This document shows, in pieces, positions 28,664 through 30,572 of a stretch of DNA of 64,000 nucleotides (the first letter of the stretch is position 1; each line of letters starts with the position of its first letter). Where the stretch lies: contig CAIOFF010000066.1 in the NCBI GenBank assembly GCA_903857495.1, positions 1 through 64,000 of the forward strand, written 5' to 3'. The notes beneath the pieces were generated by a model. It searched no databases, was not told the origin of the DNA, and saw only the letters and a list, made by a program, of their open reading frames with translations. A program made the position numbers and the translations under genes. Origin of the DNA: an uncultured Holophagaceae bacterium. GTDB taxonomy: Bacteria > Acidobacteriota > Holophagae > Holophagales > Holophagaceae.

Positions 28664-30373
28664 TTACGCCTCACCAGATTTATAGCCTTCGTCGTGGATG
28701 TCCATGACGGCGCGGCCGGAGGGGTCGGCCATGGTCGCAAAGGCGGCGTCCCAGCGCAGGGCGGTCTCGGTGCTGCAGGCGACGCTGCGCTCGAAGGGGA
28801 CGCAGTGGACGGCGGTGGCACTGGGGAAGTGGTGCTCGAAGAGCTGGCGGTAGAGGTAGGCCTCCTTGGTCTCGGGGGTCTTCACCGGGAAGCGCTCTGC
28901 GGCGCCGGCCAGCATGGTGTCCGTGACCTCCTTGTCCGCGTAGGCCTTCAGGGAGTCGATCCAGGAGTAGCCGACACCATCCGAGAACTGCTCCTTCTGG
29001 CGCCACAGCACCTCATCGGGGATGGCCCCGACGAAGGCCTGGCGCAGCGGCCACTTCTCCATGGGCCTGGGCCGGGGGGCGTTGCGGGGCAGCTTCACGT
29101 CCGGGTTCATGCGCATGGCCACGTCCAGGAAGGCCCGGTCCAGGAAGGGCACGCGGGCCTCCACGCCCCAGGCGGCGCTGGACTTGTTGGCCCGGGTGCA
29201 GTCGTAGAGGTGCAGCTTCTGGAGCTTGCGGACCAGCTCTTCGTGCAGCTCCTGGCCATTGGGGGCCTTGTGGAAGTAGAGGTAGCCGCCGAAGATCTCG
29301 TCCGCGCCTTCGCCGGACAGCACCATCTTGATGCCCATGGCCCGGATCTTCCGCATGAGGAGATACATGGGGGTCGAGGCCCGGATGGTGGTGACGTCGA
29401 AGGTCTCGATGTGGTGGATCACGTCGGAGAGGGCATCCAGGCCCTCCTGCACTGTGAAGTGGATCTCGTGGTGGATGGCGCCGATGTAGTCGGCCACCTT
29501 GCGGGCCGGGGCCAGGTCCGGGGCGCCGACCAAGCCCACGGCGAAGCTGTGGATCCGGGGCCACCAGGCGGGACCTGCGTCGCCCTCCTCCACGCGGTTG
29601 TCCCGGAACTTGGCCGCGACAGAGGAGATGATGGAGGAGTCCACGCCGCCGGAGATGAGCACGCCGTAGGGCACGTCGCACATGAGCTGGCGATGGACGG
29701 CGGCCTCCAGGGACTCGCGCAGGGCGACGGCGTCGTAGGGCTCGGTGGGCACGTAGCCCGGCTCCGCCCAGTCCGGCTGGTAGTAGCGCTGGAAGCCCTT
29801 GTCTGCCTCGTGGCCCAGGAAGTAGGTGCCGGGCGGCACCTCGCGGATGCGATCACAGTGGCCCACCAGGGCTTTCATCTCGGAGGCGACGATGAGGTTC
29901 TCATGCTTGTCCCAGCCCACATAGAGGGGGATGACGCCGATGGGATCCCGGGCGATGAGGTAGGTCTTGCGCTTGGGGTCGTAGAGCACGAAGGCGAAGA
30001 TGCCATTCATGCGGTTCAGGAAGTCCCGGGGCTCCAGCTCGTCGTAGAGGTAGAGGATCACCTCGCAGTCCGACTTGGTCTGGAAGTCGTGGGCCTGGGT
30101 CAGCTCCTCGCGGAGCTCCTTGTGGTTGTAGATCTCTCCGTTGACCGCCAGCACCGTGCCCTTGAGGGTGTCCAGCAGGGGCTGGGCGCCGTGCTCGACG
30201 TCCACGATGGAGAGCCGCTCGTGGACGAGGATGGCCCGCTCATCGCTGTAGATGCCGCTCCAGTCCGGCCCCCGGTGACGGATCTTCCGGGCCATGGCGA
30301 GGGCCTGACGCCGGAGCTCCGCCGGGTTGGACCGCGCCGGATCGATGCCGAGGATGGTGAGGATGCCGCACAT
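28664..30373 (-). CDS. asnB: asparagine synthase B (glutamine-hydrolysing)
   Basis: MCGILTILG N-terminal Ntn Cys; GVLISGGVDSSIIS; LSGEGADEIFGGYLYFHKAP. Confidence 0.95.
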   Translation of the reverse strand: MCGILTILGIDPARSNPAELRRQALAMARKIRHRGPDWSGIYSDERAILVHERLSIVDVEHGAQPLLDTLKGTVLAVNGEIYNHKELREELTQAHDFQTKSDCEVILYLYDELEPRDFLNRMNGIFAFVLYDPKRKTYLIARDPIGVIPLYVGWDKHENLIVASEMKALVGHCDRIREVPPGTYFLGHEADKGFQRYYQPDWAEPGYVPTEPYDAVALRESLEAAVHRQLMCDVPYGVLISGGVDSSIISSVAAKFRDNRVEEGDAGPAWWPRIHSFAVGLVGAPDLAPARKVADYIGAIHHEIHFTVQEGLDALSDVIHHIETFDVTTIRASTPMYLLMRKIRAMGIKMVLSGEGADEIFGGYLYFHKAPNGQELHEELVRKLQKLHLYDCTRANKSSAAWGVEARVPFLDRAFLDVAMRMNPDVKLPRNAPRPRPMEKWPLRQAFVGAIPDEVLWRQKEQFSDGVGYSWIDSLKAYADKEVTDTMLAGAAERFPVKTPETKEAYLYRQLFEHHFPSATAVHCVPFERSVACSTETALRWDAAFATMADPSGRAVMDIHDEGYKSGEA

Positions 30374-30382
30374 GGAAGCTCC

Positions 30383-30419
30383 AAAAGAAAAAGCCCCGAT
30401 CCGCTTGCGCGAATCGGGG
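30383..30419 (-). terminator. Intrinsic terminator immediately upstream of asnB (attenuator)
   Basis: Minus strand CCCCGATTCGC-GCAA-GCGGATCGGGG-CTTTTTCTTTT, then GGAGCTTCCATG of asnB; 11-bp stem with one G.U. Confidence 0.88.
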
Positions 30420-30439
30420 TGGTCCGGGGAAGCAGGAAT

Positions 30440-30526
30440 CTAGGAGATGCCCTCACCGGCCCACGCACGATCCGCGCGAGGGAGCCGATTATTATTGCGG
30501 TTGGGCCGCGGGAGGGGAGTGGTCAT
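30440..30526 (-). CDS. asnB leader peptide (Asn-rich), MTTPLPRPNRNNNRLPRADRAWAGEGIS*
   Basis: 28-codon ORF with N-R-N-N-N between promoter-like sequence and terminator; AAGGCG SD-like sequence upstream; not in the supplied ORF track. Confidence 0.75.
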   Translation of the reverse strand: MTTPLPRPNRNNNRLPRADRAWAGEGIS

Positions 30527-30543
30527 TGAATCGCCTTGAGTCA

Positions 30544-30572
30544 CTTTATCGGCCCGGTTCACAGATCGTCAA
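30544..30572 (-). promoter_or_regulatory. Sigma70-like promoter for the asnB leader
   Basis: Minus strand TTGACG (30572-30567), 16-17 nt spacer, GATAAA/ATAAAG (30550-30544). Confidence 0.65.

Follow-up and report, generated by a model that had tools for sequence, protein, structure and literature searches.

A candidate asparagine-specific leader-peptide attenuator upstream of asnB in Holophagaceae and related leaders with other control codons

The window analysed here, a stretch of 64,000 nt from a Holophagaceae genome related to Geothrix, contains on its minus strand a short open reading frame rich in asparagine codons, placed between a promoter and the gene asnB. This arrangement raises the question whether transcription of asnB is controlled by the charging of tRNA(Asn). 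A sequence-only reading had proposed ribosome-mediated attenuation for this site, since Asn codons precede an asparagine synthase gene. Our comparative analysis makes it very likely that a ribosome-mediated transcription attenuator, sensing asparaginyl-tRNA(Asn), is located before asnB. The proposal gains support from conservation in Holophagaceae, from independent leaders outside the class, from leaders attached to a second type of asparagine synthetase and from paralogues with pathway-matched codons. The named members of the group to which the window genome belongs are Geothrix and Holophagaceae.

The promoter, leader ORF, Asn codons, terminator and asnB of the earlier proposal were all recovered at their minus-strand positions. 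The asnB gene (28664 to 30373, with the ATG at 30373) encodes a glutamine-hydrolysing asparagine synthase, identified as AsnB by the NCBIfam equivalog PRK09431 (830.8 bits, cut-off 499). Its promoter consists of a -35 box TTGACG (30567 to 30572) and, at a distance of 16 nt, a -10 box GATAAA (30545 to 30550). Of 49 distinct upstream regions from homologous loci, 48 have TTGAC[A/C/G/T] at 15 to 19 nt 5' of a -10-like box, the exception being L046 with TTGTCT, and the -10 position reads GATAAR or is TATNAT-like in most relatives. A weak Shine-Dalgarno-like AAGGCG (30532 to 30537) precedes the leader ORF, and most relatives keep CAGG or AAGG a few nucleotides 5' of the leader ATG. The ORF itself (30440 to 30526) comprises 28 codons, MTTPLPRPNRNNNRLPRADRAWAGEGIS, and is supported by its conservation and by synonymous changes in the Asn run. 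Four of five successive codons specify Asn (AAC CGC AAT AAT AAT, Asn-Arg-Asn-Asn-Asn, 30488 to 30502). The ORF is followed by an intrinsic terminator hairpin of 11 bp (30394 to 30419, -21.1 kcal/mol) with the arms CCCCGATTCGC (30419-30409) and GCGGATCGGGG (30404-30394), the loop GCAA and the T-rich tract CTTTTTCTTTT (30383 to 30393), which is kept in relatives. The gene on the other side of the leader, tdh, is divergent from asnB and transcribed away, so the terminator cannot serve to end a co-directional upstream gene.

Two pairings compete for the 5' arm of this terminator. An antiterminator strand within the leader ORF, in the following called segment 2 (GCGCGGATCG...GTGGGCCGG, 30456 to 30477), can pair with segment 3 (CCGGACCACCCCGATTCGCGC, 30407 to 30427), which includes the terminator 5' arm; both are supported by alignment and pairing, and segment 2 also by codon counts. 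The pairing of GCGCGGATCG (30477-30468) with CGATTCGCGC (30416-30407), which contains one G.U, had been predicted before and is confirmed; it is lengthened by a second block, GTGGGCCGG (30464-30456) with CCGGACCAC (30427-30419). Segment 2 can also pair with itself (CGCGC-GGATC-GTGCG), and this 5-bp hairpin is conserved. The pair GGCCCA/TGGGCC, suggested earlier as a possible protector, did not hold up, as relatives keep TGGGCC but have GGTTC, GGACC or GGATC in place of GGCCC.

From these elements the following course of events can be proposed. RNA polymerase would start about 11 nt 5' of the leader ORF, with a ribosome trailing it. If Asn-tRNA is ample, the ribosome would clear the Asn codons, segment 2 would be covered or folded on itself, and the 3:4 hairpin could form and stop transcription before asnB. 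If Asn-tRNA is scarce, the ribosome would stall on the Asn codons and leave segment 2 exposed just ahead of it. The exposed segment 2 would pair with segment 3 once this is transcribed, before the 3' arm of the terminator exists, and the polymerase would read into asnB. An asparaginyl-tRNA synthetase is encoded, so that free asparagine can set the charging of tRNA(Asn).

The leader is widely conserved before asnB. Of the 77 family genomes, 64 contain asnB matches at E<=0.001, of which some weak ones are other amidotransferases. In 51 Holophagaceae genomes the asnB start and the upstream region are present in the sequence, and 47 of these carry the leader, whereas loss of the Asn-rich ORF or terminator upstream of asnB homologues had been named as an outcome that would speak against attenuation. 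The other four (G036, G050, G051 and G069) have asnB without it, so the leader is not indispensable. Among the 49 distinct upstream sequences with the leader, 44 belong to one main type, whose alignment is straightforward and in which the antiterminator strand CGCGCGRATCGCGCGTGG and GACCACCCCGATTCGC are near-invariant. The combination of Asn run and terminator was detected in 43 of the 49 real upstream regions and in none of 20 rounds of first-order Markov sequences modelled on these regions; judged by this null and by conservation in relatives, the arrangement exceeds chance. The leaders contain 3.9 Asn codons on average, and three from Geothrix (L113-L115) contain only two.

Several loci deviate from this layout. 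In G036 (L118) asnB follows immediately on a TTGACG promoter, which looks like a deletion of the leader region, and G069, with its leaderless asnB, carries elsewhere an orphan Asn leader whose terminator is broken (L186, G069:C3). In L126-L130, L042 and L046 the leader ATG lies just 6 nt 3' of the -10 box, from which we conclude that translation of these ORFs probably starts on leaderless mRNAs. L042 and L046 are contigs titled Gemmatimonadetes bacterium and 'bacterium', respectively; both have asnB with a leader of the Holophagaceae type, and their asnB neighbours are common to the two and unlike those in the window. This suggests horizontal transfer as the likely origin of the two loci.

Folding of the full transcript at equilibrium does not separate the two states, because at almost all positions of the ribosome the terminator outcompetes the antiterminator, so that the proposed switch must be kinetic. 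Instead, the transcript was cut before the 3' arm of the terminator, and the ribosome was taken to cover 15 nt from the A-site codon. In this simulation (n=49), an A site positioned on Asn codons gave a mean pairing of 0.80 between the terminator 5' arm and upstream RNA, and an A site at the stop codon gave 0.00. The drop occurs directly after the last Asn codon and moves with codon insertions and deletions, and all Asn control codons lie within the stretch that permits the antiterminator. Shuffling of segment 2 lowered the mean pairing to 0.40, a modest control, as 15% of the shuffles reach the observed value. Over 14 leader types, 48 of 64 cognate codons fall into the 8 codons that end at the switch (null 21.6 +/- 3.4, 0/5000), a test that overstates the evidence because the types were picked post hoc and AT-rich Asn codons in any case tend to lie outside GC-rich pairing segments. 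The 16-pair antiterminator is intact in 97.7% of the alignment cells. No covariation was found in it within the Holophagaceae alignment, where the core barely varies and is hence uninformative; support for the pairing therefore comes from divergent leaders with different pairings.

The two halves of the leader ORF appear to be under different constraints, as seen when the leaders are aligned on the conserved core RA[DN]RAW. Four codons 5' of the core Arg, Asn is specified in 44 of 44 main-type leaders, by AAT in 40 and by AAC in 4. The antiterminator codons, in contrast to these varying Asn codons, are nearly fixed even at synonymous sites. The core Ala codons are GCG in 43 of 43 and 41 of 41 cases; the start of asnB favours GCC (130 vs 48). 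One core codon alternates between GAT and AAT (Asp/Asn), a change of residue in which the pairing with segment 3 survives as G.U or A-U. Because the Asn positions change synonymously while the core codons are fixed and the Asp/Asn change is neutral for pairing, the codon patterns indicate an amino-acid constraint on the N-terminal half and an RNA constraint on the C-terminal half. The share of AAT among Asn codons is 108/172 in the leaders and 7/55 in eight genes of the window.

These constraints also bear on the idea that the small peptide (RADRAWAGEGLS) made from the ORF has a function of its own and that the terminator only sets basal expression. Such a peptide would account for the high conservation of the C-terminal half within the main type, but this half is fixed at synonymous sites as well, which RNA pairing explains. 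Moreover, the sister genus g9 (PPPGWSW) and other classes have a wholly different C-terminal half but retain the Asn run. We therefore regard a peptide function as extremely improbable. The leaders of g9 keep the Asn run (e.g., MAFASVNFANNNPPPGWSW) and have a different antiterminator and a terminator with the arms CCCCACG/CGTGGGG. In other classes of Acidobacteriota, unrelated Asn-rich leaders with terminators precede asnB, for example MKRRNSNNATSNSLNTNFSATGGLLP and MMHTRSNSVNPNRGNSCAAGVCL. With relaxed terminator criteria, 4 of 27 asnB regions from outside the class reach 3 or more Asn within nine codons (null 0) and 8 of 27 reach 2 or more (null 0.02); strict criteria missed several of these leaders. 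Here, too, the simulated switch lies where the Asn cluster ends. In Gammaproteobacteria and other phyla, 62 asnB loci showed no such leader.

The leader is not restricted to asnB. G053 and G054, both without a close asnB, and G071 have an Asn leader before a non-homologous, asparagine synthetase A-like enzyme. The solved structures nearest to it are those of an archaeal asparaginyl-tRNA synthetase-related protein (1nnh) and of an archaeal asparagine synthetase A (3p8t), and it matches the NCBIfam family 'asparagine synthetase A' below the cut-off. In G071, an Asn-containing leader of the same family (L188, G071:C114) is located before a gene without a Pfam or NCBIfam match. A leader with QQQQN and a terminator before the ammonium transporter gene amt (L193, G070) was seen in one genome, was absent from the amt upstream regions of the inspected relatives, and was not counted.

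A covariance model of the leader RNA core, searched across the class, revealed leaders before genes for DAHP synthase I (aroF), class II DAHP synthase and the bifunctional chorismate mutase/prephenate dehydratase (pheA), as well as before proC and a fused proB-proA. Examples before aromatic and proline genes are MTPRFHRYYWFPRADRAWHGEGPA, MTPPCTFFYYFGFRTPVRVGGVLR, MAACRFSFFYFSFRTPGAGAALT, MSALHFQTPRPSLPPPGAPAGEGLS and MTTFPAINPRPNHPTPTDGLERV. Their control codons are aromatic before the DAHP synthases and pheA, and Pro before proC and proBA. Many Geothrix genomes have, before type I DAHP synthase, leaders that combine the common RNA core with Tyr, Trp and Phe codons (L181-L185, L190-L192 and L206-L208, about position 200-330 of each in gene orientation); the aroF of the window genome itself (L301) has no such leader. 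Pro-containing leaders are located before proC (L195, L196, L200, L205) and proBA (L202, L203), and further ones are L263, L264, L268 and others. Many Geothrix proC genes have another conserved Pro leader, e.g. MILIPAIHPRPSTLRAGGSRMIG, with a GC-rich terminator. The weaker matches of the model (proC, pheA) may reflect convergence and not homology. Taken together, it seems somewhat more probable than the contrary that one RNA core, made of antiterminator strand and terminator, is a portable module that was duplicated within genomes, moved between phyla together with asnB and re-specified by swaps of the control codons (Asn, Phe/Tyr/Trp, Pro), and that now serves asnB, the archaeal-type asnA, DAHP synthases, pheA, proC and proBA.

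The exchange of control codons also helps to judge what the RNA core does. Its near-invariance across the family would be expected of an aptamer, and the core could sense asparagine directly, as a ligand-binding riboswitch or a protein-binding antiterminator, in which case the ORF would be incidental. However, the same core recurs with Tyr, Trp and Phe codons before aromatic genes, and family leaders with Pro codons stand before proline genes. Conversely, g9 and other classes keep the Asn codons in unrelated RNA, the most conserved Asn position varies only synonymously, and no Rfam family matches the asnB leader at the gathering score. Direct sensing by the RNA is thus very unlikely. An attenuator of the same layout might also respond to a general slowdown of translation, for instance by inhibitors, and not to asparagine; in the simulation, any stall at the Asn codons would indeed free segment 2. 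This possibility we consider scarcely credible, as the cognate match of codon and gene recurs for Asn with two enzyme types, for aromatic amino acids and for Pro. A cognate ribosome-stalling attenuator is the best reading because of the independent Asn leaders, the second type of asparagine synthetase and the paralogues with pathway-matched codons.

The trp, his, leu, thr, ilv and phe leaders of Escherichia coli are the classical ribosome-mediated transcription attenuators. With these the asnB leader shares a short ORF with a run of pathway-cognate codons, a mutually exclusive antiterminator and intrinsic terminator, and a predicted stall position that matches the switch. It differs from them in its Asn specificity, its occurrence in a clade of Acidobacteriota, its paralogues with swapped control codons and the probably leaderless transcripts of several lineages, whose ORF starts some 6 nt 3' of the -10 box; the likeness is one of layout, and no sequence homology is claimed. 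In Firmicutes, genes related to asparagine are controlled by the T-box, which reads the charging of tRNA(Asn) and controls termination. The asnB leader is proposed to do the same before Asn-related genes, but by a translating ribosome that reads codons. The Rfam search gave no T-box match in the window at the gathering score, and between 30300 and 30700 none even when E values up to 5 were admitted.

Histidine leader peptides before hisS and hisZ in Bacilli were likewise found by comparative genomics (Naville and Gautheret, 2010; PMC2965389). They resemble the asnB leader in that a leader peptide precedes a gene family controlled elsewhere by the T-box, and differ in amino acid and phylum. The same survey reports almost no predicted attenuators with associated functions in Acidobacteria and does not mention asparagine (PMC2965389). 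No leader-peptide attenuator for asparagine is described in Rfam or in the open-access papers searched; an earlier prediction may exist in the subscription literature. Based on the comparison of sequences, the asnB leader very probably represents classical leader-peptide attenuation with asparagine specificity, within a family of re-specified paralogues.

If confirmed, asparagine would join the amino acids that are sensed by leader-peptide attenuation, and the mechanism would be shown in a phylum where a survey gave almost no attenuators of known function (PMC2965389). The attachment to two non-homologous asparagine synthetases indicates that the leader is exchangeable between genes, and changes of attenuator specificity are documented in nature by the paralogues with their differing control codons.
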